Source of the DNA: SAR86 cluster bacterium | Lineage (GTDB): Bacteria; Pseudomonadota; Gammaproteobacteria; Magnimaribacterales; AG-339-G14 | Assembly: GCA_028135785.1 (NCBI GenBank) | Contig: JAOIHS010000002.1 | Span: 89,386-153,385, forward strand | Reading direction: 5' to 3' | DNA length: 64,000 nt | In this document: one piece after another, positions 22,127-58,578 of the stretch | Numbering within the stretch: the first letter of the stretch is position 1 | Layout of the letters: each line of letters begins with the position of its first letter | Translations under genes and position numbers: made by a program | The notes under the pieces: generated by a model | Databases searched by the model: none | What the model was told of the DNA's origin: nothing | The model's input: only the letters and a program-made list of their open reading frames with translations

Positions 22127-23272
22127 ATGAAATCACCAATATGTGAAATGCTCGGAGCAGAATTCCCACTAGTAGCATTTAGTCATTGTAAAGATGTAGT
22201 AGTAGCTGTATCAAAAGCTGGGGGAGTAGGCGTTCTTGGAGCGGTAGGAATGTCACCTGAAATTTTAGAGCAAGAACTTAAATGGATAGATGAAAGAATC
22301 GATGGAATGCCTTACGGAGTTGATGTCTTGATTCCAAATAAAATGTTGGGCAAAGGTGAAGAATTTAATGCACAAAAGCTTGTAGATATGATTCCACAAG
22401 AATATCGAGATTTTAGAACAGATGTTTTAAAAAATCATGACATCGATGCGCCAGAATTAAGAACAAATGAAGATGATTTATCTTCTTCTGGTTTTGCAGA
22501 AAATACTGCAGACGAGGGGGCAAAAGCGTTACTGGATGTTGCCTTTTCTCATCCTATAAAATTGATAGCAAACGCTTTAGGTGTTCCGCCAGAATGGATG
22601 ATTAAAATGGGTAAAGATAATGATGTAAAAGTTGCAGCTCTCTTAGGAACTAAAGAACATGCAATAGCTCAGGTAAAAGCAGGCGTGGATATTTTAGTTG
22701 TATCCGGCACTGAAGCTGGAGGGCATTGTGGAAGCGTTTCAACTATGGTCTTAGTCCCCGAAGTGCATAGAGCAATACAACCTTATGGAGATGTCCCCAT
22801 ATTAGCAGCAGGTGGAATAGTTACCGGAGAACAAATGGCTGCTTCAATGGTTATGGGGGCCTCAGGAGTCTGGACAGCATCTGTATGGCTAACAACTGCA
22901 GAAGCAGAAACACATCCCATTGTTAAAGAAAAAATGTTGAAAGCTAGCTCAAGCGACACCGTAAGGTCTAGAAGTAGGACTGGTAAACATTCAAGACAAC
23001 TAAAATCTTCTTGGACAGATGCTTGGGAAGCGGAAGGTGCTCCAGAACCTTTACCAATGCCTCTACAACCAATTGTTGCGGAACCAGCACTGCGAAAAGT
23101 TAATCAACTTGCCGAAGGTGGTCATGATGGGGCAGTCGATCTAGCTACGTATTGGGTTGGACAAGGAGTTGGTATGATGACTGAAAGCTTATCAGCAGGA
23201 ACAGTCGTTCAAGAATTTAAACAAGATTTTATAAACGCATACGAGAGATTTGAGGGTTTTCTTCAAGAATAA
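22127..23272 (+). CDS. Nitronate monooxygenase family FMN enzyme
   Basis: This TIM-barrel FMN protein (381 aa) is of the nitronate monooxygenase / 2-nitropropane dioxygenase family. VVVAVSKAGGVGVLGAVG at the N-terminus and GTEAGGHCG near residue 194 (His-containing active-site loop), with VPILAAGGIVTGEQMAASM for FMN phosphate, are visible. It oxidises alkyl nitronates or acts as an enoyl-ACP-reductase-like flavin enzyme; the specific substrate is unknown. It converges with the COQ4-like gene with no gap between stop codons. Confidence 0.87.
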   Translation: MKSPICEMLGAEFPLVAFSHCKDVVVAVSKAGGVGVLGAVGMSPEILEQELKWIDERIDGMPYGVDVLIPNKMLGKGEEFNAQKLVDMIPQEYRDFRTDVLKNHDIDAPELRTNEDDLSSSGFAENTADEGAKALLDVAFSHPIKLIANALGVPPEWMIKMGKDNDVKVAALLGTKEHAIAQVKAGVDILVVSGTEAGGHCGSVSTMVLVPEVHRAIQPYGDVPILAAGGIVTGEQMAASMVMGASGVWTASVWLTTAEAETHPIVKEKMLKASSSDTVRSRSRTGKHSRQLKSSWTDAWEAEGAPEPLPMPLQPIVAEPALRKVNQLAEGGHDGAVDLATYWVGQGVGMMTESLSAGTVVQEFKQDFINAYERFEGFLQE

Positions 23273-23788
23273 TTAAGAAGAAATGGTTCCTGACCATCTA
23301 AGTTTAGGAACCATTCTATCTTTTTCATTGAGAATCTCGATTCCATATTCCTTTCTCAAATCAGATATTTTTCTTTCCATATAAAATTCAGGGGGAGTAA
23401 AAGGCCACTTTTTTTTCATTTTTTTAATTTTTTTAAAAATCTTAAAGTGAGTAGGAATAATTTTTATATATAAAGAAACGAACTTACGATAGCCTATTTC
23501 CTTAGCTAAATATTTAGTGAGCCCTTTTAGTTCAGGTAATTTTGTATAAGATAGTAAATATCTTAATTTGTAAGAACAGCCAAATATAAGCCAAGAATCT
23601 AAAAAAGACTCTTCCTCTAAAGAAGTATCTAGTCCAAAAATTACATGTGAAGCGTCATGATCCCTAATTAGGGTGGAGTTGTCTTTATCTACTAATAGTT
23701 TTTTATTATTATCTAGTAGATATTGGTCATAAACCTCAATTCCTTCTTTCAAAGTCAAAGAACAGTTTTGTTCTTGAAAAGCTAGCAT
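23273..23788 (-). CDS. COQ4-like protein (ubiquinone biosynthesis family)
   Basis: The motif HDxxHx11E of the COQ4 family is exact (His44, Asp45, His48, Glu60 in the 171-aa form). It is followed by WLIFGCSYKLRYLL and a basic C-terminal half ending with MVPKLRWSG. COQ4 acts in C1 decarboxylation/hydroxylation of coenzyme Q precursors. The role here is inferred from the motif only. I place the start at ATG 23788, one base after the SDR stop; a GTG at 23815 would add nine residues inside the SDR gene. It is the last gene of the five-gene DUF1330-MBL-ADH-SDR-COQ4 run. Confidence 0.72.
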   Translation of the reverse strand: MLAFQEQNCSLTLKEGIEVYDQYLLDNNKKLLVDKDNSTLIRDHDASHVIFGLDTSLEEESFLDSWLIFGCSYKLRYLLSYTKLPELKGLTKYLAKEIGYRKFVSLYIKIIPTHFKIFKKIKKMKKKWPFTPPEFYMERKISDLRKEYGIEILNEKDRMVPKLRWSGTISS

Positions 23789-23789
23789 C

Positions 23790-24554
23790 TTAAGTATTCC
23801 ACCAAGCCTGATCACTAAAAGATCTAATATCTATTTCATGAGTCCACGAGGATCTATGCTGTTGGGCAATATGCCAATAAGTTTCAGCAATTTTTTCAGG
23901 AACCAATAATCCATCGTTTTCCATGCCTTTAGTTTCTCTCAGTTTTTGGAAATTTTCTTCACCAAGCATTTTTCCCAGAGTATCTGGAGCATCTACAGCT
24001 CCGTCTATAATAATATGAGCAATATGAATATTTTTTGAGGCAAATTCTGCATTCAAAGATTGGCAAATCATTCTTCTTCCTGCCATGGCTGACGCATGCG
24101 AAATTTGACCTTTATTCCCTCTAACGGCAGAAGTTGCTGATGTTACTAAGATAGTTCCAGATTTTCTTTCTTCCATGAGTGGAGTCAAAACTTGAGCTAA
24201 ACGAAATAAACCAAAAGTTGCCATTCTCCAGCCCATCTCAAAAGCTTTATACGAAGTATCTTTTAGGTCTCTATTACCTATCTGAGCTCCAATGTTATAA
24301 ACAGCTACTTCGATAGGGCCTATTTCTTTTTCGATATGATTAACGATATCTTCGATACTATTTTCATCTATTACATTAAGTAAACTCCCAGATGCGACAC
24401 CGTCATCTGCTTCAATTTCATTGATGAGTTTATTTAATCCATCTTGATCAGTTCTGCGACATAGATAAACATGAAATCCTTCTCTAGCGAATCTCTTCGC
24501 AACATTTCCTCCAACACCAGCTCCAGAACCTATTACCAAACAAACTTTTTTCAA
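23790..24554 (-). CDS. Short-chain dehydrogenase/reductase family protein with altered active site
   Basis: This Rossmann-fold SDR (254 aa) has the nucleotide-binding GSGAGVGG at residues 9-16 and VAVYNIGAQIG in the NNAG position. The expected catalytic YxxxK is not seen: the aligned segment reads SHASAMAGRRM, with His and Met where Tyr and Lys are normal, after the Ser in VTSATSAV. It may be a non-canonical oxidoreductase or a binding protein. It lies 14 bp after the zinc ADH gene and 1 bp before the COQ4-like gene. Confidence 0.83.
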   Translation of the reverse strand: MKKVCLVIGSGAGVGGNVAKRFAREGFHVYLCRRTDQDGLNKLINEIEADDGVASGSLLNVIDENSIEDIVNHIEKEIGPIEVAVYNIGAQIGNRDLKDTSYKAFEMGWRMATFGLFRLAQVLTPLMEERKSGTILVTSATSAVRGNKGQISHASAMAGRRMICQSLNAEFASKNIHIAHIIIDGAVDAPDTLGKMLGEENFQKLRETKGMENDGLLVPEKIAETYWHIAQQHRSSWTHEIDIRSFSDQAWWNT

Positions 24555-24568
24555 TTTATGTACTTCTT

Positions 24569-25615
24569 TTAGTCGTGAGTTAATGAAACCAGACCCACAA
24601 GCTTTCCTGCTTTCATTTCCTCAAGAGTTCTATTAGCCTCAGAAGCATTTCTCGATTCCACCTTTACAGGTTCTATTTTGCCTTCGGCAACGAGCGTCAT
24701 CAATTCCTTCATTTCTCCTAGACTGCCCACATATGATCCAAGTAATCTTTTTTCAGTAAGTGTGTGTATTGGTAAAGGAATAGTTATTTGACCTCCAAAT
24801 AATCCAACCACTACTTGAATACCACCTCTAGTAAGGTTGTTGTATCCAAAATTTACCGATGCTTCAGCTCCTACAAAATCGACAATAGCTTTTGCTCCAC
24901 CGCCGGTAAGTTCGGTAAGTTTTGCAGCAGCATCTTCAGAAGCAGAATTAATTACATGTGAAGCACCAAGATCTTTAGCAATCTTCAACTTGTCATCATC
25001 TATATCCATGACAATAGGGTTGATGCCGTATGCCGCTCTTGCAATTTTAAGCGCCAACAAACCTAAACCTCCGGCACTAATAATTACTAAGGAATTATCT
25101 GTTGTAAAAGGCTCAGCTTTTTTAAGAGCACTATAAGCAGTTAAACCTCTACAGGCATAACTTCCGGCTAGACTATCAGGAGTATCTCCTGCAGCAAATA
25201 AATATTGTTCTCCTGGAACTAAAACATGATCTCCATAACCACCGCTCACATTTATACCCAGATTTGAATTATTCATGCAGTAATGAGTTTTATCAGAGTC
25301 ACAAAGCTCACAGTTTCCGCAACCTATCCAGGGATAAGCTACATATCTTTCTCCAATACTTACGTTCGAAACTTCATCACCAATAGCTACGACTTCGCCA
25401 AAAATCTCATGCCCCATAGTTAACGGATCATTTACAGGAGTTGGAAGTTGAGCTCCTCCACCTAGATCAAAGTAACCATCAAGAATATGTACATCTGAAT
25501 GACAAACTCCGCACGATATAGTTTTTATTAGGACTTCTTTCCCCTTTGGCACTGGAGTTTCCAATTCCATTTCTTTTAGGGGCTTGCCATTTTCTACTAC
25601 CTGATATGCTTTCAT
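24569..25615 (-). CDS. Zinc-dependent alcohol dehydrogenase
   Basis: This medium-chain dehydrogenase has 348 aa. Catalytic-zinc ligands are Cys and His in CGVCHSDVH and the GHE of MGHEIFGEVV. The structural zinc site is GCGNCELCDSDKTHYC. The NAD(P) motif is ISAGGLGLLALKIA. Substrate is not readable. It is cotranscribed with a downstream SDR (14 bp) and an upstream MBL lipoprotein (15 bp), suggesting stepwise oxidation of an alcohol or aldehyde. Confidence 0.92.
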   Translation of the reverse strand: MKAYQVVENGKPLKEMELETPVPKGKEVLIKTISCGVCHSDVHILDGYFDLGGGAQLPTPVNDPLTMGHEIFGEVVAIGDEVSNVSIGERYVAYPWIGCGNCELCDSDKTHYCMNNSNLGINVSGGYGDHVLVPGEQYLFAAGDTPDSLAGSYACRGLTAYSALKKAEPFTTDNSLVIISAGGLGLLALKIARAAYGINPIVMDIDDDKLKIAKDLGASHVINSASEDAAAKLTELTGGGAKAIVDFVGAEASVNFGYNNLTRGGIQVVVGLFGGQITIPLPIHTLTEKRLLGSYVGSLGEMKELMTLVAEGKIEPVKVESRNASEANRTLEEMKAGKLVGLVSLTHD

Positions 25616-25630
25616 TTTCTCTCCTTATTA

Positions 25631-26605
25631 TTAATTTATTAAAGATGCATAAGCTCTATTAACTAAAACTAATGAATTTTTGCCTAAAATATCCTCAAAC
25701 TCCTTGGCTGGGTTTATTTCTAGTACCTCTTCCAAAGATATTCCTTTGTATATTAAAGAAGCAATTCTATCTCTTACTATTATCAATTTTTCTAAATAAA
25801 TTTTAACTGTTTTTTTATCCGATAATTTACCATGTCCAGGCACAATAATAGTTTTATCGTCTATGATTTTTAAAATCTCACTGATAGAGTCAATCATTCC
25901 ATTAATTGAGCCGCCATTATCTGCATCTATAAATATAAAATCTCCGGATAAATTAATTATATCTCCAGCATGCAAAACATTCGATTTAGAAAAGTACACG
26001 AAAGCATCTCCAGTAGTGTGAGCGGGTCCAAAATTCATAATCTTAATTTTTTCTTTATTTAAAAATAATTCCATAGAATCATTGAATGTAATATTTGGAA
26101 GAGCCGAACTTTCAAAAGCTTGTTGTGGATATTTTAAAATTACCAAATTCACTAGGTTATCTCTCTTCATAAATTCCCGAGAATTTTGATGAGCAATTAT
26201 TTCTGCTCCTAATGGCCCAAAAGCTCTATTGCCTTCAGCATGATCATAATGCCAATGAGTATTAATTACGTAGTCAACTTCTTCCCCGCCTAACTCTGAG
26301 ATCGCTTTCAAAACTTTTTGATGATATTGCGGATATTGATCATCAACTATTACTACACCGTCCTCACCAATAGAAACAAGAATATTTCCTCCAACGACCG
26401 GACCTTCAGCAAACAAAACAGACAAACTATTATTAATTTTGACGACTTTTATCTCATTTTTATCGAAACCAGGAAATTGAATAGCTTCAAATAATTTTTC
26501 TTGATCTTGAGTAAATTTTGTAAAGTCTGGCAATGGGTCTTGAGTACAAGAGAAAATTAGATTAACAATTAAAAGCAGTGTTAAATTTTTAATCATTTTT
26601 TTCAA
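25631..26605 (-). CDS. Metallo-beta-lactamase fold hydrolase, probable lipoprotein
   Basis: An N-terminal signal ends in LIFSC, with Cys20 as a probable lipidation site. The MBL fold contains THWHYDHAEGN (metal ligands His117, His119, Asp121, His122), GPAHTTGDAFVYF and IIVPGHG. Length is 324 aa. Such exported MBL proteins resemble the quinoprotein relay/SoxH-like group that often accompanies alcohol oxidation, but the substrate is unknown. It precedes the zinc ADH by 15 bp. Confidence 0.86.
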   Translation of the reverse strand: MKKMIKNLTLLLIVNLIFSCTQDPLPDFTKFTQDQEKLFEAIQFPGFDKNEIKVVKINNSLSVLFAEGPVVGGNILVSIGEDGVVIVDDQYPQYHQKVLKAISELGGEEVDYVINTHWHYDHAEGNRAFGPLGAEIIAHQNSREFMKRDNLVNLVILKYPQQAFESSALPNITFNDSMELFLNKEKIKIMNFGPAHTTGDAFVYFSKSNVLHAGDIINLSGDFIFIDADNGGSINGMIDSISEILKIIDDKTIIVPGHGKLSDKKTVKIYLEKLIIVRDRIASLIYKGISLEEVLEINPAKEFEDILGKNSLVLVNRAYASLIN

Positions 26606-26622
26606 TCTAGATTTCTAAAAAA

Positions 26623-26937
26623 TTATCTACCAGGCATGCTATGAACAACAGTTAAATTGAGCAATTCGGTAGCAGGTCTTCTATATGTATCTGATAATTT
26701 TTGATAGTTTTCTGAGTTATACCAATTATTTAAATCTTCTTCGTTTGAAAAAGACCAGAGAATAACTCTACCTTGGATTGGAGAAGTTCCTTCCAAATGC
26801 TGAGTACTATCGTCCATAGTAATGAATTCTCCGTTATGTTCTTTAATGGTTCCGAAAAAGCCTTTTTCATAACCTCTGAATACTTCAGCATCTTTAATGT
26901 GAACATTAGCTATACAAATTACTTTCTGATCTGACAT
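26623..26937 (-). CDS. DUF1330 family protein
   Basis: This small ferredoxin-like dimeric-alpha/beta-barrel protein has 104 aa. VICIANVHIKDAEVFRGYEKG, PIQGRVILWSF and the NWYNSENYQKLSDTYRRPAT segment are typical of DUF1330. No function is known. It heads the MBL-ADH-SDR-COQ4-like operon (17-bp gap) with a TAGGAGT ribosome site. Confidence 0.83.
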   Translation of the reverse strand: MSDQKVICIANVHIKDAEVFRGYEKGFFGTIKEHNGEFITMDDSTQHLEGTSPIQGRVILWSFSNEEDLNNWYNSENYQKLSDTYRRPATELLNLTVVHSMPGR

Positions 26938-26973: not shown

Positions 26974-26999
26974 AAAAAGCCCCGCGTAAGCAGGGCTTT
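26974..26999 (-). terminator. Rho-independent terminator of the winged-helix gene
   Basis: AAAGCCC...GGGCTTT stem with a C/A mismatch, an inner GC pair set and a GTAA tetraloop. Read on the minus strand it is followed by a run of five Ts. It separates the winged-helix regulator gene (ending at 27113) from the DUF1330 operon. Confidence 0.72.
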
Positions 27000-27112
27000 C
27001 CTCAAAAATCCTTTTCGATTAATCCCAAATCCTTGGGGGAAAAAATATTATAAAAAAAAATAAACACTTTTGTTGAAAAATCAACCGTATGAAATGTGCA
27101 TATTTTTTTTGC

Positions 27113-35566: not shown

Positions 35567-36286
35567 ATGCCAAAGAAGATTAAGGGTATAAATGTCTCAG
35601 TCTATTCAAAGAAGATTGAATCGCTCAAAAAAAACTTCAGCATTCTTAGTGTTGACGCAAATAAAATATTAAATAAATACGAAAATATATCTTTTGAAGA
35701 CACATATTTATCAAAAAAAGAATCTTTTATTTCATTAATGAGATTAAACCCAAGCATGGCACTTATAAGGTATCTTGACTCAAAGACAGACCTTTGGCAC
35801 TTCAAAGATAAAAGAACAAACATTGAATATGCAATTGATTTAGTATTAGGTTGGTTAAGTGAAGATATAATTATTTCTCATCTAAGAGAAAAAAGCATTA
35901 AATGTGATTTAAATGGCAGAGATAAGTATAGAGAGTTTCTAAGTCCAAAATATATCTCTGCACAACCTGACATAAAGATAAAAATTAATGAACGATATAG
36001 AACACTTGAAATTGCGAATGATTGGAATGACTACTGGATTAGGTCAGATATGCTGGATCTAAGAGATAACAAGTTTCTAAAACTAAGAAATGAAAAATCA
36101 TTATTTCTTGGAATTGCGCCACTATCCTCAAAGGGAATCTTCTTAGATTTCTCTGAAAAATTAGATTTTATTAAGAGATTTAATCCCGCATACGGTAAGA
36201 GCGCTTATACTTTAAAAAAAATTCGAAATAGAATGAATAATATTGATATATCGATACAAGAATTGTTATCAGTAAAATATGAATGA
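35567..36286 (+). CDS. Candidate restriction endonuclease subunit of the island
   Basis: I do not recognise a named family. The protein (239 aa) is lysine-rich and mostly alpha/beta. A possible PD-(D/E)xK-type core is seen as Pro134-Asp135 and, after a beta strand, Glu148-Ile-Ala150-Asn in RTLEIANDW; the last position is not the usual Lys, so this is tentative. Upstream EYAIDLVLGWLSEDII could supply a further acidic residue. It overlaps the HNH gene by 8 bp and lies with a C5-methyltransferase, which is why a restriction role is inferred. Confidence 0.55.
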   Translation: MPKKIKGINVSVYSKKIESLKKNFSILSVDANKILNKYENISFEDTYLSKKESFISLMRLNPSMALIRYLDSKTDLWHFKDKRTNIEYAIDLVLGWLSEDIIISHLREKSIKCDLNGRDKYREFLSPKYISAQPDIKIKINERYRTLEIANDWNDYWIRSDMLDLRDNKFLKLRNEKSLFLGIAPLSSKGIFLDFSEKLDFIKRFNPAYGKSAYTLKKIRNRMNNIDISIQELLSVKYE

Positions 36287-36896
36287 TACAGAATTTAAAA
36301 AGTATGCAAAAATTTTAAAAGATAGTTATGTTGAACATCTTGAGAAAGAACAAGTAAAGTTTCCAAGTGGAATCAAGTTATATGAGCTTTGTTATTTATA
36401 TAAAAATTTTAAAAAACCATTAGCGATAAGTGAAATATCAAATGCAGTTCAAAAAAAATACCCTAACCAGGATGGCAAACAAGCAAGACACTTAGCAGGG
36501 TCTGGTTGGTATCTAAAGACTGGAACAAAGACAGCAACAATTTTTCAATATGATGAAAATATACCTCATGCTCACCTGATGTTATTTTCAATAAAAGAAA
36601 AAAATCCAAAATATAATCCAAAAAAAAGGGATGACATAATTAATGCAACAGAATGGGAAGATATTTTGAAGTTATTCAATAAAAGAGGTTGTGCAGTATG
36701 CGGCATTAAGGATGTAAGTTATGACAAAGGACATTTAGATGATGAAAAAGGATACAGAGATAATGTTGTACCAATGTGTAGATCTTGCAATAACTGGGGC
36801 ATGAAATACAAATTAAAATTTGAATTAGATAAAAATAATCCTCTTATTGCAAGACCAGTTCTCAAAGGAAGAAATTTTAAGTTTTCAGAGATTTAA
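36279..36896 (+). CDS. HNH endonuclease, candidate type II restriction enzyme
   Basis: This is a 205-aa protein with a C-terminal HNH/zinc domain: C-x2-C in RGCAVCG (138, 141), KGHLDDEKGYRDN (His152 and the following Asn162) and C-x2-C in MCRSCNNW (167, 170). These match the GHL...N...CRSCN pattern of HNH nucleases. The N-terminal 100 residues are probably for DNA recognition. It overlaps the upstream candidate by 8 bp and its last 20 bp overlap the stop region of the convergent methyltransferase, consistent with one restriction-modification unit. Confidence 0.78.
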   Translation: MNDTEFKKYAKILKDSYVEHLEKEQVKFPSGIKLYELCYLYKNFKKPLAISEISNAVQKKYPNQDGKQARHLAGSGWYLKTGTKTATIFQYDENIPHAHLMLFSIKEKNPKYNPKKRDDIINATEWEDILKLFNKRGCAVCGIKDVSYDKGHLDDEKGYRDNVVPMCRSCNNWGMKYKLKFELDKNNPLIARPVLKGRNFKFSEI

Positions 36897-37950
36897 ATAT
36901 CTCTTTACCTAGCGCCTTTGCTAGATGAAATGGAACTGCATTTCCAATTTGAAGATTTTTACTAGTTTTACTTCCATAAAATATATAACTATCTGAAAAT
37001 CCTTGTAATCTTGCTCCTTCTCTTGTTGACAGCGCTCTGTTTTGAAAAGGATGTATACATCTAGATGATGAAGGCGTACCAAAATTCCTTGTTATTGTTG
37101 GCGAAGGCAAGTCACTATCAAGTCTTGCATAAGTATTACCAAAATAACTCTTGGGTCTCAGTTGGTCTGGCAAATCTTTGATGGAACCATTTTTAGGAAC
37201 TAAAGACATTATAAGTTTCATTTTCTCGCCATAATTAGTTGAATTATGTTCAGAAAGAATTTTTTCCTTGCCTCTTAATTCTTTTTGCAGCGTAGTTTTT
37301 GGTTCTAAGTATGTATCACTTTTATCATTAGAGCCTAACGGCGGGAGGTCAGAGATTGCATCCGAAAGAATATTATATTTCTTTGTAAAAAGATTCCCAT
37401 CTTTGCTGTGGGTAGGCACAGGAAAGTCAAAAATTATTCCATCTTTGTAACCTACTACAATTGTTCTCTTTCTATGTTGTGGAGAACCATAATTTGCTGC
37501 ATCAAGAATCCCACTTTTTACTTTGTAACCAATATCGCTTAGTTCAGAAACAAGCGTATTAAATGCTATTCCTTTATAAAGTTTTTTGAACCCTGAAACA
37601 TTTTCAAACAAAACCATTCTAGGATTGATTTCTTCAACCGCTCTAAGAAATTGCCAAAATAAAGAATTCCTTTTGTCTTTCTCATTTTTCTTTCCAACTG
37701 TGCTGAAACCTTGACATGGCGGACCTCCGCATACCAGATCAAGTCTTTCAGGATGAATATGTTTTAAGACCTCAGAATAATTTACATTTCCTATGTCCTC
37801 ACTAATAACTAGGCACTTCTTATGATTTCTCTTAAATGTTTCTGCGAAATCTTTATTAATTTCTACTGCAACCAAAGATCTAATACCTTCTTGTAGTAAC
37901 CCACAAGACAATCCTCCTGCACCTGAAAATAGATCTATTGAATTAAACAT
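36877..37950 (-). CDS. DNA (cytosine-5-)-methyltransferase
   Basis: It transfers methyl to C5 of cytosine in DNA to protect against the cognate nuclease. Conserved motifs are in order: I DLFSGAGG (residues 6-13), IV GGPPCQGFS (nucleophile Cys79), VI ENV (116-118), VIII QHRKR (158-162), a target-recognition region of about 100 residues, IX REGARLQGF and X IGNAVP. Length is 357 aa. It converges with the HNH gene. The recognition sequence cannot be read from this sequence. Confidence 0.93.
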   Translation of the reverse strand: MFNSIDLFSGAGGLSCGLLQEGIRSLVAVEINKDFAETFKRNHKKCLVISEDIGNVNYSEVLKHIHPERLDLVCGGPPCQGFSTVGKKNEKDKRNSLFWQFLRAVEEINPRMVLFENVSGFKKLYKGIAFNTLVSELSDIGYKVKSGILDAANYGSPQHRKRTIVVGYKDGIIFDFPVPTHSKDGNLFTKKYNILSDAISDLPPLGSNDKSDTYLEPKTTLQKELRGKEKILSEHNSTNYGEKMKLIMSLVPKNGSIKDLPDQLRPKSYFGNTYARLDSDLPSPTITRNFGTPSSSRCIHPFQNRALSTREGARLQGFSDSYIFYGSKTSKNLQIGNAVPFHLAKALGKEIFKSLKT

Positions 37951-38572: not shown

Positions 38573-39916
38573 ATGAACAAACTTTCACTATCTAATAAAG
38601 TAAGAGCTGGATACGGCATTGGCGATTTTGCAATATGTCTTTATTGGAGTGGTGTAGGTCTATACCTTTTATATTTTTATACAGATGTAATAGGCATTTC
38701 CCCGTTATTGGCAGGCTGGATCTATGCTTTAGGAATAGCTTGGGATGCAGTCACTGATCCATTTATGGGTTACATAGCTGAAAGAACCAGAACTAAAATG
38801 GGAAGTTATAGGCCTTATATGTTTTACGGATCCATACCCTTGGCTTTTTCATTTGTTTTGCTTTTTTGGGCACCTCCTTTTGAAGGAAATTTATTATTCT
38901 TCTTTTTGCTAATCGTTAATCTTTTCCACAGATCTTGCTTCACTATTGTTAGTGTTCCTTATTCGTCACTTACAGCTCGTATGACAGATGATAGTGACGA
39001 GAGAACAAAGTTAACTACAGCAAGAATGATCGCAGCTTCTTTTGGAACTCTCTCTATGTCTGCATTAGGTTTTCCAATAGTGGCTTGGTATGGAGAAGGT
39101 AATGAGGCGTTAGGGTTTGTATTTTTAGGAGCTATTTCAGGCTTAATAGCTTTAGTTGTTCTTGGGGTTACCATTAAATCTGTTCAAGAAAGACAGTTTA
39201 AATTCAATAAAGAAAGCCTTCCTAGCTTTTCAAAAGTTACAAAATCAGTTGCCAATAATTATCCATTCTGGATTGTTTTTAGTTCAATTTTAATTCTTGG
39301 TTCAACTTCAATTATGTTCAATAAAAACTTAATCTATTACGTTAAATATGCTTTGGATATGCATGATTCTCAAGGATTGATTTTAGGAGTATTGAGTGCC
39401 ACTGCATTTTTATCAATTCCCTTTTGGTCGTTTTTGGCTTTAAAAATAGGAAAAAAGAATGCTTGGCTTGGCTCTATGACAATATTATTTTCAGGGCTTA
39501 TAATTTTTTATTTATACCCAATTAAGGGAATTTCTGAGTTACTTATAATTCTAGGCTTTATCGGGATTGGTAATGGAGCTACGGGAGTGCTTTTTTGGTC
39601 GATGTTGCCAGACACAATAGAATATGGCGAGTGGAAAACGGGCATAAGAACCGAATCCTCTTTGTATGGATTTATGACATTTGCTCAAAAAGGAGCAATA
39701 GCAGTTGCCGCGCTCAGTCTAGGATGGATTTTAACCATAATTGAATTCACTCCTAATACTATTCAATCAATAGAAACCATAGAAAATTTAAAGTTCATTA
39801 TGGCTTGGATTCCTATAGCTGGGATATTTATAAGTTTTATTTTAGTCTGTTTTTATCCAATAGATTCAAGCTTTCATAAAAAGCTAATAGAGGAAATTAA
39901 TGAAAAAAGTGAATAA
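38573..39916 (+). CDS. GPH-family sugar:cation symporter (MelB-like)
   Basis: This is a 12-TM major-facilitator-like transporter (447 aa) of the glycoside-pentoside-hexuronide:cation symporter group. The N-terminal GYGIGDFAICLYWSG, DAVTDPFMGYIAERTRTKMG and the late LPDTIEYGEWKTGIR are the family's fingerprints. It probably imports a sugar or glycoside with H+ or Na+. It overlaps the downstream fusion oxidoreductase gene by 17 bp and is near a GH3 glycosidase, so uptake and breakdown of a glycoside is likely. Confidence 0.9.
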   Translation: MNKLSLSNKVRAGYGIGDFAICLYWSGVGLYLLYFYTDVIGISPLLAGWIYALGIAWDAVTDPFMGYIAERTRTKMGSYRPYMFYGSIPLAFSFVLLFWAPPFEGNLLFFFLLIVNLFHRSCFTIVSVPYSSLTARMTDDSDERTKLTTARMIAASFGTLSMSALGFPIVAWYGEGNEALGFVFLGAISGLIALVVLGVTIKSVQERQFKFNKESLPSFSKVTKSVANNYPFWIVFSSILILGSTSIMFNKNLIYYVKYALDMHDSQGLILGVLSATAFLSIPFWSFLALKIGKKNAWLGSMTILFSGLIIFYLYPIKGISELLIILGFIGIGNGATGVLFWSMLPDTIEYGEWKTGIRTESSLYGFMTFAQKGAIAVAALSLGWILTIIEFTPNTIQSIETIENLKFIMAWIPIAGIFISFILVCFYPIDSSFHKKLIEEINEKSE

Positions 39917-41900
39917 AGTAAAATGGGGCATCATAGGAACCGGCAGTATAGCTAGCTCGTTTGCGCATTCCATTAAAAGTAGTAAAAATGCAGATTTAAC
40001 AAGTGTTTATGGTAGAAGCAAATCAAAACTTCATGATTTCTCTCAAAAATTTAATTTAAAAGATTTTAATTCTTTAGATCATTTTTTGTCTTCAAAAGAG
40101 ATTGACGCAATTTATATAGCAACTCCTCATAGCTCACATTTTCTATATTCATATGAGGCAATAAAAAATAAAAAACACGTCTTGTGCGAAAAGCCAATAG
40201 CCCTTAATTCTTCAGAAAGCATGGTGCTTGTAAATGAAGCAAGAAAGAATGAAGTTTTTTTAATGGAAGCTTTTATGTATCGAACCCATCCTCAAACTCA
40301 AAATATAATTGAACTTACCAAGAAAGAATTTTCAGGTAAAAAAATCAAAATAGAATGTTCTTTTGGATTCAATGCAAAGGTATCAGAAGATCATAGGCTG
40401 AGAAATTTAAATCTCGCCGGCGGAGCCATTTTAGATGTTGGTTGTTATCCATTATCAATGGTTAGATTGATAGCTGGAGCATTAAGCGATAAAAAATTTA
40501 TAGAGCCTTTAGAAATTAAAGTATCAGCAGAAATAGACAAAACAGGAGTTGATATTAGCTCAACAGCTGAATTAATTTTTTCAGAAAATATTAGCGCTGA
40601 AATAAAGACAGCAATCAATAATGATCTGCCTAACAATTTAATTATTAAAAGCAGTGATAAAACTTTAGAGGTTAGCCAGCCCTGGCATTGCGGTCAATTT
40701 CAAGATGGAAAGTCTTCAATTTCTCTCTCAGTAGCCGGCAAAGAAACAAAAGAATTTCATGTTAAAGATGAAACTGGTTTATTTACAAGAGAAATTAATC
40801 ATGCTTCTGAAGCTATCTTAAGTAGACAGATAGAGTCAGATTTTATGTCTCATGGCGATACTTTAGGAAATATGATCTCGTTGGAAAACTGGTATAAATC
40901 GGCTGGAGTAATTTACCCTCAAAATTTTCCAGAAAATTCTCCTATTTTTTTTCCGATCGATAAATCAAAAAAAATTATTGATAAAGTGAATATTGATGAA
41001 ATCGATAAAGTAGGCTCAAGAATAGTTTTTGGATGCGATAATCAAACCTCATCTCTCCATGCTTCAACCATGTTTGATCATTTTTTTGAACACGGTGGAA
41101 ATATTTTCGATACAGCATATATCTATAATTCTGGTAAATCTGATTCATATTTAGGGGAATGGATTTCTTCTAGAAAATTATCTAATGAAGTAATTGTTAT
41201 AGGGAAGGGCGCTCATACGCCTGAATGCGATCCAAAATTCATAAGGCCGCAATTAGAAGAATCTCTAGATAGGCTTAGACTTGATGCCTTAGACATTTAT
41301 TGTTTGCACAGAGATAATTTGGAAATCCCAGTTTCTGAATTTATAGATGCTTTAAATGAACTAAAGGATGAGGGATTAATAAAATCTTTTGGTGCATCTA
41401 ACTGGACTTTCGAAAGATTTAAAGAAAGCACGGACTATTCAGAAAAGAGTAACAAAGTAGGTTTTAAAATTCTTAGTAATAATTTTAGTCTAGCAGAGAT
41501 GATAAGCCCCGTATGGCCAGGATGTATTCATTGTGATGAAGACTATCTATCTTATTTAATCAAAAAAAATGTTTTGCTTTTTCCTTGGTCAAGTCAAGCA
41601 AGAGGGTTTTTTATACAAAGAGACTTATTTCCAAAAAAAGATCATTTTTCAAATCCCACATCAGAAGAAGAAAAAAGAGTCTGGCACAACGAAATCAATC
41701 TAAGAAGAAGAGAAAAGTGCTTTAAGCTTGCTAAAGATCTAAATTGTACTTCTATTGAATTAGCTCTGGCATATGTTCTTAACAAAAATAAAAATATTTT
41801 TCCATTAGTTGGACCAAGGACATTGTTTGAGTCGGAAAGTTGCATGAAAGCAACGAAAATAGAATTATCTCAAAGTCAGATGGATTGGCTTGTTGAGTAA
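39900..41900 (+). CDS. Fusion of Gfo/Idh/MocA dehydrogenase and aldo/keto reductase
   Basis: This is a single 666-aa reading frame with two complete domains. Residues of about 1-335 are a Gfo/Idh/MocA oxidoreductase: WGIIGTGSIASS nucleotide motif and EKPIAL (Glu97-Lys98-Pro99). Residues of about 350-666 are an aldo/keto reductase: FDTAYIYNSG with Asp/Tyr, VIGKGAH with Lys, YCLHRDN with His, all four catalytic positions retained. The fusion likely couples oxidation of a sugar to a second redox step. It overlaps the GPH symporter gene and belongs with the GH3 glycosidase locus. Confidence 0.9.
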   Translation: MKKVNKVKWGIIGTGSIASSFAHSIKSSKNADLTSVYGRSKSKLHDFSQKFNLKDFNSLDHFLSSKEIDAIYIATPHSSHFLYSYEAIKNKKHVLCEKPIALNSSESMVLVNEARKNEVFLMEAFMYRTHPQTQNIIELTKKEFSGKKIKIECSFGFNAKVSEDHRLRNLNLAGGAILDVGCYPLSMVRLIAGALSDKKFIEPLEIKVSAEIDKTGVDISSTAELIFSENISAEIKTAINNDLPNNLIIKSSDKTLEVSQPWHCGQFQDGKSSISLSVAGKETKEFHVKDETGLFTREINHASEAILSRQIESDFMSHGDTLGNMISLENWYKSAGVIYPQNFPENSPIFFPIDKSKKIIDKVNIDEIDKVGSRIVFGCDNQTSSLHASTMFDHFFEHGGNIFDTAYIYNSGKSDSYLGEWISSRKLSNEVIVIGKGAHTPECDPKFIRPQLEESLDRLRLDALDIYCLHRDNLEIPVSEFIDALNELKDEGLIKSFGASNWTFERFKESTDYSEKSNKVGFKILSNNFSLAEMISPVWPGCIHCDEDYLSYLIKKNVLLFPWSSQARGFFIQRDLFPKKDHFSNPTSEEEKRVWHNEINLRRREKCFKLAKDLNCTSIELALAYVLNKNKNIFPLVGPRTLFESESCMKATKIELSQSQMDWLVE

Positions 41901-49491: not shown

Positions 49492-49899
49492 ATGGGTTAT
49501 TTTATTCAGTTTTTATTAGATAATTGGTTTATTGTTATACCTCTAATTATTTCAATATTTATCTTTTTCAAACTAGAAGGTATAAGAAATTCCTTTCTAT
49601 TAGATCCTCAACAGATGGTCTTTTTTCTAAATAGAAAAAATGCTGTTTTGATAGATATTAGAAATGAGAAAGATTTTTTAAAAGGTCATATTAGTCAAGC
49701 TGTTCATACAGGTCCAGATATAGATTCGTGTAAAAAAGAGATCAAAAAATCTCCAGAGCAACCCATAATTATTGTTTGTCAAAATGGAAATTACTCATCT
49801 CGAATGGCAAGTGATTTAAAAAAAGAAGGTCAACAGACCTTTATTTTGAAAGGCGGAATAAATTCTTGGACCAGTGAAAAATTACCTCTAATCAACTAA
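49492..49899 (+). CDS. Membrane-anchored rhodanese-domain protein (YibN-like)
   Basis: An N-terminal TM helix (residues 8-27) is followed by one rhodanese domain (about 40-135) with VLIDIRNEKDFLKGHISQAV and the active Cys in VCQNGNYSSRMA. Length is 135 aa. E. coli YibN has the same layout and also lies next to a phosphoglycerate mutase gene. The sulfur or selenium substrate is unknown. Its 3' end overlaps ntrC by 4 bp. Confidence 0.87.
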   Translation: MGYFIQFLLDNWFIVIPLIISIFIFFKLEGIRNSFLLDPQQMVFFLNRKNAVLIDIRNEKDFLKGHISQAVHTGPDIDSCKKEIKKSPEQPIIIVCQNGNYSSRMASDLKKEGQQTFILKGGINSWTSEKLPLIN

Positions 49900-51296
49900 A
49901 GATCTAATTCATTCATTTTTCTAGCTAAAGTATTTCTTCCCCAGCCAAGGAGATTGGCGGCTTCACTTTTTTTCCCTTTAGTGGCTTTCATGGCAACTTT
50001 AATCATAGTTCTCTCAAATATAGGAATTGTAGAATTAAGTAGATGATCGTCACCCTTAGAAAGTTTTTCAGCTGCCCAAATTTCTAATAAATCATTCCAA
50101 TTCATTTCAGGCCCTCTCTTTTGAAGCATTAAATCATTTGGAAGGTCAGATGTTTGGATTTCTTGACCAGAAGAAAGAACAGTAAGTGAATGGCAGAGAT
50201 TCTGCAGTTGAAGAACATTTCCCGGCCAAATTAATTTAGAAAATAACTCTTCCACTTCAGAGGATAAGATTTTTGATTCTGAGCCAATCTCTTCTGAAAA
50301 CTTTTCAAAAAAGTAATTAGTAAGTAGAGGGATATCTTCTTTTCTTTCCCTTAATGCAGGAAGGGCAATTCTAATAACATTAAGCCTATGAAAAAGATCT
50401 TCTCTAAATGCACCACTACTAACTTTATCATTCAGATTTTGATTAGTTGCAGCTATTATTCTTACATCTACCTTTACAGGGTCACTACCACCTATTCTAT
50501 AAAACTCACCGCTTGAAAGAACTCTAAGAATTCTTGTTTGAGTTTCGTATGGCATATCACCAATCTCATCTAAAAAAAGAGTAGCATTATGAGCCTGTTC
50601 AAATCTTCCAATTTTTTTATGGTCTGCCCCAGCAAAGGCTCCTTTTTCATATCCAAATAATTCTGATTCTAAAAGTTCAATAGGAATATCTGCCATGTTT
50701 AGAGAAATTAATTTTTTCTCAGCTCTGTCGCTATGCTCATAGATAGCTTGAGCAACCAATTCTTTACCAGTCCCTGATTCACCTACTAATAAAACCGTTG
50801 AACTAGAATGCGATAACTTTCCAATCGAATTAAAAAGATCTTGCATTGCTGGAGACTTACCTATAATTCTGCCTTTCTCTAAATGAATTTCTTCGTCGCT
50901 GATTACTTTTTTCGATCTAATTTTTTTTTGTTCTAACGCTTTAGAAATTTTTGAAATTGCATCATTGATATCAAAAGGTTTCGCAATATAGTCCCATGCT
51001 CCATTTTCAAAAGCATCTACAGTTGTTTCAAGATCTGAATGAGCAGTCATCATTATTACAGGAATATTTGAATGTTCACTTTTAAAAGTATCTAAAAGAT
51101 CCATGCCATCTCTTCCTGGCATTTTCAAATCTGTTAGAAGAACATGAGGTTTTTCTATATCAAGTTGATTAACGACCTCATTTCCATCTTCAAAAACAGA
51201 TACATTAAAACCGGCATCAATAAGTCCTTTTTTAAGGACAAACCTTATTGATTCATCATCATCAGCTATCCAAACTTTTTTTAATTTAGGCATCAT
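49896..51296 (-). CDS. ntrC: Nitrogen regulator NtrC with altered GAFTGA loop
   Basis: A three-domain response regulator of 466 aa: a receiver with phospho-acceptor Asp56, an AAA+ domain with Walker A GESGTGKE (172-179) and FLDEIGDMP, and a Fis-type HTH (AANLLGWGRNTLARKM). The sigma-54-contacting loop reads GAFAGA (219-224, Ala222) where GAFTGA is standard. It should be phosphorylated by the adjacent NtrB; their genes overlap by 11 bp. The targets are probably the upstream glutamine synthetase genes of the same operon. The Thr-to-Ala change may alter how it activates transcription. Confidence 0.93.
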   Translation of the reverse strand: MMPKLKKVWIADDDESIRFVLKKGLIDAGFNVSVFEDGNEVVNQLDIEKPHVLLTDLKMPGRDGMDLLDTFKSEHSNIPVIMMTAHSDLETTVDAFENGAWDYIAKPFDINDAISKISKALEQKKIRSKKVISDEEIHLEKGRIIGKSPAMQDLFNSIGKLSHSSSTVLLVGESGTGKELVAQAIYEHSDRAEKKLISLNMADIPIELLESELFGYEKGAFAGADHKKIGRFEQAHNATLFLDEIGDMPYETQTRILRVLSSGEFYRIGGSDPVKVDVRIIAATNQNLNDKVSSGAFREDLFHRLNVIRIALPALRERKEDIPLLTNYFFEKFSEEIGSESKILSSEVEELFSKLIWPGNVLQLQNLCHSLTVLSSGQEIQTSDLPNDLMLQKRGPEMNWNDLLEIWAAEKLSKGDDHLLNSTIPIFERTMIKVAMKATKGKKSEAANLLGWGRNTLARKMNELDL

Positions 51297-52377
51297 ATGC
51301 TCCTATATCCTTTGTTTTATAGCTATCTTCTAAAATTGGAATGAGTATTGAAAAATTAGTTCCAGTTGAGTCACTAGAACAATCTATAGAGCCGTTATGC
51401 TGATTAATTATTCCTCTAGCTATTGCAAGTCCTAAACCCGAAGAAACTTGTTTTGTTGAAACAAGGGGAAAAAAAATTGAGTCAATAAAATCTTCAGAAA
51501 TACCAGGGCCATTATCGATAAAATCAATTTCACAGGCGGTTTTATAAAACTTACCATTTATATGAACTTCATAAGCAACTCTAGTCCTAGCTATTATTTT
51601 ATTTCCAGTGTTAGTTTTCTCCATTGCTTCAATAGAATTTCTAGTAAGGTTATAAAAAACTTGCATGATTAGAGATGAATCAATTTTAATTAAAGGAAGG
51701 CTTGGATCGTAATCACGTTCGAAATCTATATCCTTGAAATCTAATGAATTTATAAAATCTGGAAGTTTCTCAAGAACACTATGAATATTCTCCATTGCCA
51801 AGGTTAATTTAAAATTCTTCTCCGAAACTTGATTAACTATATCCGTGATCCTTTCAGTTTCTCTCAGAATAATATTTAAAAGATCCTGATTGTCTCTCGC
51901 TTTTAATTTATTGCTTAATAATTGTGCAGCTCCTTTGATGCCACTTAGAGGGTTTTTAATTTCATGAGCAAGACCTTTAGAAAAAGCTGCAGTCACAACT
52001 CCTCCAGCTGATTTTCTTCGGCTTCTTTTTGCCATAGCTTGTTTATCTGCATCAAAAAACTCAAATACGATGAATTCTTCAGCTTCGTCATAATATGTTG
52101 CTAAAAATGAACATTTTTTTTTCAAATTATTATTTAAAAATAAAGTAGTTATATGTCTCTTAAGATGAGTTTTGGATGCAGCTAATTCAGAAAATTCAAG
52201 GCTGTTATCAGGCTTTTCGGTAAAAATTTTATTAACTGACTTTCCTTCACATTCAGAAAAATTAATATTAAGGAAATCTTCAGCTGAACTATTTATAAAA
52301 ACTATATTGAAACTTTTGTCTGTTATTAAAAGTTTCGAAGAGATATTTTTAAGTGCTGTATCAAATGAATTTTGCAT
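51286..52377 (-). CDS. ntrB: Nitrogen sensor histidine kinase NtrB
   Basis: This 363-aa kinase has an N-terminal PAS domain (residues of about 7-115), the H box GLAHEIKNPLSGIKGAAQLL (His138) and an ATPase with NLTRNSIEAM (N box), FIDNGPGIS (G1) and SSGLGLAIARGI (G2). It has no TM helix, so it is cytoplasmic and likely senses PII. It is 19 bp after glnA and overlaps ntrC, the standard glnA-ntrB-ntrC order. Confidence 0.94.
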   Translation of the reverse strand: MQNSFDTALKNISSKLLITDKSFNIVFINSSAEDFLNINFSECEGKSVNKIFTEKPDNSLEFSELAASKTHLKRHITTLFLNNNLKKKCSFLATYYDEAEEFIVFEFFDADKQAMAKRSRRKSAGGVVTAAFSKGLAHEIKNPLSGIKGAAQLLSNKLKARDNQDLLNIILRETERITDIVNQVSEKNFKLTLAMENIHSVLEKLPDFINSLDFKDIDFERDYDPSLPLIKIDSSLIMQVFYNLTRNSIEAMEKTNTGNKIIARTRVAYEVHINGKFYKTACEIDFIDNGPGISEDFIDSIFFPLVSTKQVSSGLGLAIARGIINQHNGSIDCSSDSTGTNFSILIPILEDSYKTKDIGAYDA

Positions 52378-52396
52378 ATCTCTAAATTAATAAAGA

Positions 52397-53803
52397 CTAG
52401 ACACTGTAGTACATATCAAATTCTACAGGACTAGTCGTTTGGTTTAAGTAAGTAACTTCTTCAGATTTAAGAGCAATGTATCCGTCAATCAAATCATCTG
52501 AAAAAACATCTCCTTCTTTAAGAAATTCTCTATCTTTATCCAAGGCATCAAGAGCCTCTTCAAGAGATCTTGCAACGGTTGGATATTTTTTAGCCGACTC
52601 TTCGGGGTTTTTAAAAAGATCTTCATCTCCAGGACCAACAGGATCTATTTTATTTTTAATTCCATCTAAGCCAGCCATTAATAATGCTGAAAAGCATAAA
52701 TAAGGATTAGCTGTTGAATCAGGAAATCTAACTTCTATCCTTCTTGCTTTCGGAGAATCAACCCAAGGAATTCTTACTGCTGCTGATCTATTCCTAGCTG
52801 AGTAAGTAAGGACTGTAGGCGCTTCAAAACCAGGCACTAATCTTTTATAGCTATTAGTTGAGGCATTGGTGAAAGCATTTAGCGCTTTACCATGTTTTAT
52901 AATTCCTCCGATATACCAAATTGCTTCTTTAGACAATTCAGAGTAACCATTTTCATCATAGAAAACAGGCTCACCGTTTTTAAATAATGATTGATGAACA
53001 TGCATTCCGTTTCCATTATCTCCTACTAAAGGTTTGGGCATAAAAGTAGCAGTTTTGCCATATGCAGCAGCAGTATTATGGACGCAGTATTTATAAATCT
53101 GAACTTCATCAGCTTTCCGAACCAAAGTATTAAACTTTGCACCAATTTCGCATTGACCAGCATTAGCTACTTCATGATGATGAACTTCTATGCCAAGACC
53201 CATTTCTTGCATGGTTTCACACATAGAAGACCTTATTTCGTGAAGAGAATCGACTGGAGGTACTGGAAAATAACCGCCTTTGATACCTGGTTTATGAGCT
53301 AAATTTCCACCATCATACTTTTCTCCAGTTTCCCAAGCGGCTTCTTCAGATCCAATTTCAAAAAAATTACCTTTCATTTGAACATCAAATCTAACATCAT
53401 CAAAAATAAAAAATTCATTTTCAGGACCGAAGTAAGCTGTATCTCCTACGCCACAATCTTGCATATATTTTTCTGCTTTTTCAGCGGTAGACCTTGGACA
53501 TCTTGAATATCCTTTCATAGTAGATGGCTCTACTACGCTACAAGTAATGTTGAGGGTAGGAGTCTCAAAAAAAGGATCCATTACGGCCGTATTTTTATCT
53601 GGCATGAGAATTTGATCAGACTCATCAATTGACTTCCAACCAGCCACTGATGAGCCATCAAACATTTTTCCTGATCTTAGGAAATTAGCGTCCACTTCTT
53701 CTGAGGCAACAGTCACATGCTGTTCTTTGCCTTTCGTATCTGTAAATCTTAGATCAACCCATTTAACACCATTCGATTTAATCAGATCTATAACTTTGGA
53801 CAT
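52397..53803 (-). CDS. glnA: Glutamine synthetase type I lacking the adenylylation tyrosine
   Basis: A 468-aa dodecameric-type GSI that makes glutamine from glutamate, ammonia and [13 protein letters not shown], the [11 protein letters not shown] metal site, [10 protein letters not shown], and [12 protein letters not shown] are all present. The loop that carries adenylylated Tyr397 in E. coli (NLYDLPPEE) here reads DLFKNPEE, so the acceptor is Phe397 (codon TTT at 52613-52615). It should not be controlled by GlnE adenylylation. It lies 17 bp after a GSII gene and 19 bp before ntrB. Confidence 0.96.
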
Positions 53804-53820
53804 ATTTCTCTCATGAAAAT

Positions 53821-54801
53821 TTACTTAGTTAATGTTCCAACAATATGTGTAAGAATCTTGTATGGATCTGCATTAGAGGCAGGTCTTCTGTCTTCTAAGT
53901 AACCATTCCAATTATGTTCAACAGTGTAGACAGGAATACGAATGCTTGCTCCCCTGTCACTAACACCATAAGAAAACTGATCAATGCTTTGAGTTTCATG
54001 AAGACCCGTAAGTCTCATTTCGTTATCTGACCCATAAGCTTCAATTCCATCTTTATGAACTTCGCCTAACTTTTCGCACATTGATGAAAATAGTTCTTCA
54101 GAACCACCTGTTCTCATTGCTTCATTTGAAAAATTGGTATGCATTCCTGATCCATTCCAATCTCCTGTTTTAGGTTTTGGATGAATATTAACGCCAACGC
54201 CATATTCTTCTGCAATTTTGTATAAGAGATATCGGCTAACCCATAAGTCATCAGCTGCTTTAATGCCTTTTCCAAGACACTGGTATTCCCATTGACCAAG
54301 AGCCACCTCAGCATTTGTTCCGGTTAAAGTTATTCCAAGATCTAAACATGCTTGAAGATGATCATCAGAAATCTCTCTTCCAACAACATTTCCCGCACCA
54401 ACTCCACAATAGTATTCTCCTTGCTCTTTAGGATCGCCATCTTCCCAACCAAGAGGTTCGCCAGTTTTTGGATCGGTAAAAAAGAACTCTTGTTCAAACC
54501 CGAACCACCATTCATCAGTGACAACTTCAGCAGCAGCTGCCCTAAAATTCGTAGGATGAGTTGTATGATCGGCTGACTGAACTTGAGTCATTACTAAATC
54601 ATGACCATTCGGATTAGAGTATGTTTCAACTGGTATAAGAAGACAGTCAGAGCTTCCGCCCTCTGCTTGTTTTGTTGATGATCCATCGAAAGACCAATCA
54701 GGTGGAGTCTTATCATCTGTTGCTTTTACCTTGCTTCTCATGAAAGGCTCTGGCTTGTATCCATCTAACCATATATATTCGTACGTTTTGTAATCTGACA
54801 T
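53821..54801 (-). CDS. Glutamine synthetase type II (eukaryote-like)
   Basis: A 326-aa GSII, the class found in eukaryotes and some bacteria. [18 protein letters not shown], the [11 protein letters not shown] metal site, [31 protein letters not shown] and [12 protein letters not shown] are diagnostic. It is the first gene of a GSII-glnA-ntrB-ntrC operon, with an AGGAG ribosome site and two NtrC-like dyads upstream. GSII beside GSI in a gammaproteobacterial-type genome is unusual and may result from transfer. Known GSIIs are not adenylylated. Confidence 0.95.
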
Positions 54802-57680: not shown

Positions 57681-58532
57681 TTAATTTAGACCTATTAAAA
57701 CAGTAAAGAAGATCAGAGCTCCAACCCAATTATTTTTTTTAAAAAAATTTAAGCAAGAATCTTCGTGATTAAAATCAGTTGAAGATATTAAATGAATTAC
57801 ATAGATACTTGTTAAAAACATTCCTAAATAAAAGGATAAATTAATTTCTTTAGAAAGGCCCACCATAAAAATTATCAATAAATTGAGCAAACTTCCTAAC
57901 CAGATAATATTTTCTTCTTTGCCTTCAAAATAAATTGCCGAGCTTTTTATGCCGATTGAAAGATCATCTTTTTTATCTGTCATTGCGTAAGAAGTATCAT
58001 AAGCGAGTACCCAAAAATAATTTCCAATAAATAGTAAAAAAGCTGGAATTGACAAATTATTTGAAGTTGCAGCGAAAGCCATTAATATTCCTCCTGAGAA
58101 AGCTAGTCCCAAAACTAATTGAGGAACTTTAAAAAAACGCTTTGCTAAAGGGTAAAATAGAACAATACAAAAAAGGCTTAACGCTACTTTTAAAGCCAAC
58201 ATATTTAAAAAGGTTAAGAGCAAGCAAGAAAGAATGATTAAAAAACAAAATAAAATTAATGCTTCTTTTCTTGAGACAGCTCCAGAAGCAATAGGTCTAG
58301 TGCTAGTTCTCAATACCTTTTTATCAAAATCTCTATCAAAATAATCGTTGATGACACAACCCGCAGATCTCATTACTAAAGTGCCTAAACAAAAAACAAT
58401 AAGAAGATCAGTTCTAATAAAGCCATTTCCTGCATAAATTAAAGCAATTAAAGTTGGCCATAAAAGTAAAAGAGTACCTGTCGGCCTATCTAACCTCATA
58501 AGATAATAATAGTTTTTAATAGAATTAAGCAC
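57681..58532 (-). CDS. ubiA: 4-Hydroxybenzoate polyprenyltransferase
   Basis: An integral-membrane prenyltransferase that attaches the isoprenoid tail to 4-hydroxybenzoate in ubiquinone biosynthesis. MRLDRPTGTLLLLWPT, NDYFDRDFDKKVLRTSTRPIASG (first Asp-rich motif) and YAMTDKKDDLSIGIKSSA (second) are diagnostic. I use GTG 58532 (about 284 aa), giving a normal short N-terminus; TTG 58568 is an alternative. Divergent from the rubredoxin gene. Confidence 0.93.
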   Translation of the reverse strand: MLNSIKNYYYLMRLDRPTGTLLLLWPTLIALIYAGNGFIRTDLLIVFCLGTLVMRSAGCVINDYFDRDFDKKVLRTSTRPIASGAVSRKEALILFCFLIILSCLLLTFLNMLALKVALSLFCIVLFYPLAKRFFKVPQLVLGLAFSGGILMAFAATSNNLSIPAFLLFIGNYFWVLAYDTSYAMTDKKDDLSIGIKSSAIYFEGKEENIIWLGSLLNLLIIFMVGLSKEINLSFYLGMFLTSIYVIHLISSTDFNHEDSCLNFFKKNNWVGALIFFTVLIGLN

Positions 58533-58578
58533 AGTGTTATATAATTTACAAAAATTATAACTTACCAAGATTTACATT

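Follow-up and report, generated by a model that had tools for sequence, protein, structure and literature searches.

In animals, COQ4 catalyses C1 decarboxylation in a Zn-dependent manner (PMC7615680), and in human cells the protein acts as an oxidative decarboxylase (reviewed in PMC11495197); the metal-ligand motif of the family has been defined as HDxxHx(10-13)E (PMC9774615). The C1 step can also be performed without UbiD by UbiN of R. capsulatus, a salicylate-hydroxylase-like flavin monooxygenase (FMO) that hydroxylates C1 decarboxylatively and can rescue an E. coli strain without ubiD and ubiH (PMC10626278). Here, a 64-kb stretch of DNA from a genome of the SAR86 cluster (assembly of 0.95 Mb, 65% complete), referred to below as the window, was analysed with respect to the gene COQ4L (23273-23788, minus strand; HDASHVIFGLDTSLEEE). 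Its product is very probably a divergent relative of COQ4. The gene lies at the 3' end of an older oxidoreductase cassette, from which it can be separated, and its product may be an enzyme of ubiquinone synthesis in a lineage where UbiD was not detected.

To place COQ4L in a family, its homologues were collected from SAR86 and other genomes, and 37 diverse sequences were aligned. The window protein, of 171 aa, contains an exact HDxxHx11E motif (HDASH...E), as the sequence-only reading of this DNA had recognised. The four motif residues, H44, D45, H48 and E60, were among just 9 invariant columns of the alignment; therefore, the motif is not a chance match. The window COQ4L itself had no match in Pfam or NCBIfam and thus falls below Pfam detection, unlike canonical Coq4. 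Its relatives matched Pfam Coq4 (PF05019) weakly yet with consistency (20/27 and 21/37 sequences; best E 2.9e-4 and 7.2e-4), and this was by far the commonest Pfam match among them. When the COQ4L profile was compared with six canonical bacterial Coq4 proteins by hhalign, an E value of 2.6e-6 and a probability of 88.7 were obtained, against 0.12 for an unrelated control. The profile-profile alignment paired both the metal motif and a C-terminal LRxExxI motif. With the COQ4/Coq4 family (human COQ4, Nostoc Alr8543, PDB 6E12, formerly 3KB4), COQ4L shares HDxxHx11E together with its surroundings HVIxGxDT, the LRxExxI motif and, in its predicted model, a largely helical fold. It differs in length, being about 170 aa as compared with about 215-290 aa for the canonical bacterial proteins compared, and it lacks their N-terminal part. 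The AlphaFold2 model was confident (pLDDT 92, pTM 0.88), and its top fold match in the PDB was the Coq4 homologue 6e12, although this match was weak (Foldseek E 0.45, TM 0.39); searching the PDB by sequence and by profile yielded chance-level matches only. Mainly on the basis of the motif and the profile comparison, COQ4L is with high probability a short, divergent member of the COQ4 superfamily.

The genomic position of COQ4L was then compared among relatives. In the window, COQ4L follows genes for a DUF1330 protein (26623-26937; PF07045, 8e-16), a metallo-β-lactamase (MBL)-fold hydrolase, possibly a lipoprotein (25631-26605; Pfam Lactamase_B, 9e-14), a zinc-dependent alcohol dehydrogenase (ADH; 24569-25615; Pfam ADH_zinc_N and ADH_N) and a short-chain dehydrogenase/reductase (SDR; 23790-24554; Pfam adh_short, 6e-27), all on the minus strand. 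The order DUF1330-ADH-SDR-COQ4L was common to five genomes of the same genus, g1 (G017-G020 and G022), which had no MBL gene. Among the genomes examined, the MBL gene was found only in the window genome and in G023, and it was not at the equivalent place in the five other g1 relatives. SDR orthologues were present in 36/40 genomes of the SAR86 family but adjoined COQ4L only in the genus of the window. In g2 and g4, SDR is part of the same larger block (glutathione S-transferase (GST), DUF1295, nitronate monooxygenase-like (NMO) and TonB receptor genes), and the slot of COQ4L is filled by a different protein of 154-158 aa without a Pfam match. COQ4L was detached from SDR in g2, g3 and g4, with distances of about 830 kb in G006 and 72 kb in G026, and beyond the genus of the window its neighbourhoods were unrelated. 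Its recurrent neighbours, an acyl-CoA dehydrogenase gene in g4 and genes for a YihA-type GTPase and PolA in f173, had no common theme that could serve as a functional clue.

The closest relative, G023, whose NMO is 99% identical, has lost COQ4L. In the alignment this loss was seen as an internal deletion of about 450 bp, and the first ~22 and last ~50 bases of the gene still flank the scar (L242:6854-6925). A recent insertion of COQ4L in the window is thus ruled out. Since both gene ends were retained, the ancestor of the genus probably carried COQ4L at this site and a single loss probably followed; the cassette has remained in its absence. It may therefore be concluded with high confidence that the locus has two parts, an older DUF1330-ADH-SDR cassette beside NMO and DUF1295/GST genes, and a separable passenger, COQ4L, at the 3' end. 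The retained 3' end of COQ4L in G023 contains an inverted repeat (GGTTCCT...AGGAACC), a possible terminator that NMO would share.

In g2, in g4 and in G022 of g1, the zinc ADH of the cassette is replaced by an iron-type ADH (for example, L034:5463-6593 and L243:3114-4241), a protein unrelated to the zinc ADH that occupies the same operon slot. This alternation suggests that the cassette needs an alcohol or aldehyde step; its probable substrate is an imported alcohol or aldehyde. COQ4L, separately conserved and most likely a metalloprotein, stands at the 3' end of the cassette only in the genus of the window. These comparisons bear on the view, proposed in the sequence-only reading, that the five genes form one dedicated pathway for a quinone-like or lipid metabolite. 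The close spacing on a single strand (gaps of 1-17 bp) and the gene order retained in most g1 relatives are in its favour, but neither COQ4L nor MBL is a constant member: in g2, g4 and G023 the core stands without COQ4L, and elsewhere COQ4L stands without the core. Co-occurrence of all five families, which that reading had suggested surveying, was not conserved across relatives. These neighbourhoods largely refute a single five-gene pathway, and a dedicated pathway of this kind is very improbable.

The ubiquinone genes of SAR86 were examined. UbiD was found in none of 199 SAR86-order genomes, and the same search was positive in the E. coli control. UbiA was present in 33/33 sampled SAR86 genomes and COQ7 in 31/33. 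Each genome had at most one strong UbiH-family hydroxylase, which was above the curated cut-off in 25/33. Because one flavin hydroxylase can act at two or more positions of the ring (PMC5069965), the UbiH-family count alone proves nothing. The window itself contains ubiA, encoding 4-hydroxybenzoate polyprenyltransferase (57681-58568, minus strand; TIGR01474, 297.9 bits, above the cut-off), which is evidence that the host makes ubiquinone. The sequence-only reading had described COQ4L as far from other quinone genes; this is roughly correct, but ubiA lies in the same window, 33.9 kb away.

Because UbiD is missing from SAR86, UbiA and COQ7 are kept, and animal COQ4 performs C1 decarboxylation, COQ4L is a natural candidate for the C1 enzyme of ubiquinone synthesis, although this assignment is made at somewhat less than even confidence. 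The HDxxHx11E motif of COQ4L most likely holds a divalent metal, and, like COQ4, the protein would act on the carboxyl-bearing C1 of a prenylated ubiquinone precursor, in an order without UbiD. UbiD/UbiX would then share the C1 decarboxylation step with COQ4L, UbiD being an unrelated protein. In lineages without COQ4L the C1 step is probably performed by a salicylate-hydroxylase-like (UbiN-like) FMO, which may overlap with COQ4L elsewhere. The reaction, the substrate and this redundancy are what we infer from the observed distribution of the genes. Taken as a whole, the explanation that combines the cassette, the COQ4L passenger and a C1 role overlapping with FMO is the best one, and it is put forward tentatively. 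A more specific version, in which SAR86 dropped UbiD and a minimal COQ4 of 170 aa performs C1 (oxidative) decarboxylation interchangeably with a UbiN-like FMO, giving the eukaryotic layout of COQ4, one COQ6-like hydroxylase and COQ7, is rather unlikely.

COQ4L was present in 138/199 SAR86-order genomes and in 35/40 good ones, and is thus a near-core gene of SAR86. Among 399 sampled Pseudomonadota it was found once, in the genome of the window. Members of the family came from SAR86, Halieaceae and a small number of other marine gammaproteobacteria; canonical Pfam Coq4 was rare in the class (2/274). The COQ4L tree contained two paralogue groups within the SAR86 family of the window. In g4 (L041-L051), tandem or nearby duplicate COQ4L genes, also of two paralogue groups, were observed beside an acyl-CoA dehydrogenase gene.

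The salicylate-hydroxylase-like FMO was found in 160/199 SAR86 genomes and in all 22 genera sampled. It is encoded elsewhere in the genome, outside the window, and resembles UbiN in general type. In alignment A5, the FMO group comprises L221-L232 and L238-L240, each a candidate UbiN-like enzyme of SAR86 ubiquinone synthesis. All of the 40 good genomes had COQ4L or FMO; five had no COQ4L, all of which had FMO, and six or seven had no FMO. Since an overlap of about one genome would be expected by chance, the lack of genomes without both is not significant. Over all 199 genomes, both genes were present in 107, COQ4L only in 31, FMO only in 50 and neither in 11, as compared with about 12-13 expected to have neither. 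A clean either/or pattern was thus rejected (Fisher p 0.57). When only the close FMO group was counted, p was 0.01, a value confounded by phylogeny and genome incompleteness.

About level in probability with a ubiquinone role of COQ4L is the explanation that COQ4L plays no role in making ubiquinone. A UbiN-like FMO, or the single UbiH-family enzyme, would then perform the C1 step, and COQ4L would act on another prenylated or fatty metabolite, as cyanobacterial Coq4 presumably does. Like COQ4L under the preferred explanation, UbiN performs the C1 step independently of UbiD, although it is an unrelated flavoprotein. The ability of UbiN to replace ubiD and ubiH in E. coli and the presence of FMO in all sampled genera are consistent with a C1 role of FMO. 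So is the finding that the best PDB relatives of the SAR86 FMO include decarboxylative vanillate, 4-hydroxybenzoate and salicylate hydroxylases. G023, moreover, lost COQ4L by deletion and retains FMO. On the other hand, an f2 lineage (G070, 97% complete; G316, a single contig; G334, G337 and others) carries COQ4L but lacks a close FMO, in g4 and most of g1 the only FMO is a more distant one, and a ubiquinone role of FMO is itself putative.

Several further observations weigh against a C1 role of COQ4L. Outside SAR86, 13/18 COQ4L carriers, mainly Luminiphilus/Halieaceae, had a strong UbiD match, which weakens the argument from UbiD absence alone, although a ubiquinone role is still compatible with it, as UbiD and UbiN occur together in R. 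capsulatus. COQ4L as a strict UbiD replacement is thereby ruled out as a general rule. In the SAR86 genera g225, g227, g232 and g236, neither UbiD nor COQ4L was present, but FMO was; COQ4L is therefore not universally needed. Coq4 proteins are encoded on cyanobacterial plasmids, and cyanobacteria are not known to make ubiquinone, so that the COQ4 superfamily is not restricted to ubiquinone makers. To these points may be added the weak fold match and the failure of the either/or pattern. No ubi gene was recognised beside COQ4L in the contexts examined, and the proximity to ubi genes in relatives that the sequence-only reading had considered as a possible objection to its own view was thus not observed. 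It is also conceivable, though improbable, that COQ4L has no catalytic role and serves as an organiser or a lipid-binding subunit in a ubiquinone enzyme assembly, as long proposed for yeast Coq4. Roles of COQ4 in complex organisation have been proposed (PMC11495197), and the small, largely helical, confidently modelled COQ4L would suit such a role; the strict invariance of the metal motif, however, suggests a metal-dependent function, and COQ4 metal-site mutants lose activity (PMC7615680).

If COQ4L does perform the C1 step, it would offer a bacterial COQ4 that is simple to study by experiment and represents, in minimal form, a human disease protein with chemistry assigned only recently, and it would explain how ubiquinone is synthesised without UbiD in a dominant marine lineage. 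SAR86 is among the most abundant bacterial groups of the surface ocean. A search covering titles and counts only found no paper title that linked SAR86 with ubiquinone synthesis genes. Even if COQ4L is unrelated to ubiquinone, the total lack of UbiD among the SAR86 genomes leaves a clear gap for which two candidate genes can be named.

The cluster at 23273-26937 was described in the sequence-only reading as five genes of one strand packed like a single transcript. All five open reading frames (ORFs) are present, Pfam confirmed four of the families, and the gaps are 17, 15, 14 and 1 bp from the DUF1330 gene to COQ4L. These figures assume the conserved ATG start of COQ4L at 23788; an alternative GTG start at 23815 (180-aa ORF) would give a 26-bp overlap with SDR. 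Upstream of DUF1330, the first gene of the cluster, there is an intrinsic-terminator-like hairpin on the minus strand (26974-27001; 12-bp stem and T tail), although such sites were not in excess over shuffles across the region. At the other end, the 3' end of COQ4L abuts the convergent NMO gene (22127-23272, plus strand; NMO, 2e-44), which has the same position in g1, g2 and g4. The spacing and the flanking signals are consistent with one transcription unit, and co-transcription of the five genes is likely. The MBL-fold protein matched the model of a SoxH-related pyrroloquinoline quinone (PQQ) relay hydrolase at 1.5e-24, under the cut-off of that model.

Three other regions of the window were noted from their translations. 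At 35567-37950, a cytosine-C5 DNA methyltransferase-like gene is convergent with two small genes, one of them HNH-like, an arrangement that resembles a restriction-modification island. At 39900-41900 (plus strand), a protein of 666 aa reads as a fusion of a Gfo/Idh/MocA-type oxidoreductase and an aldo-keto reductase. Two neighbouring glutamine synthetase-like genes (468 and 326 aa) lie at 49896-54801 (minus strand), beside NtrB/NtrC-like regulators.

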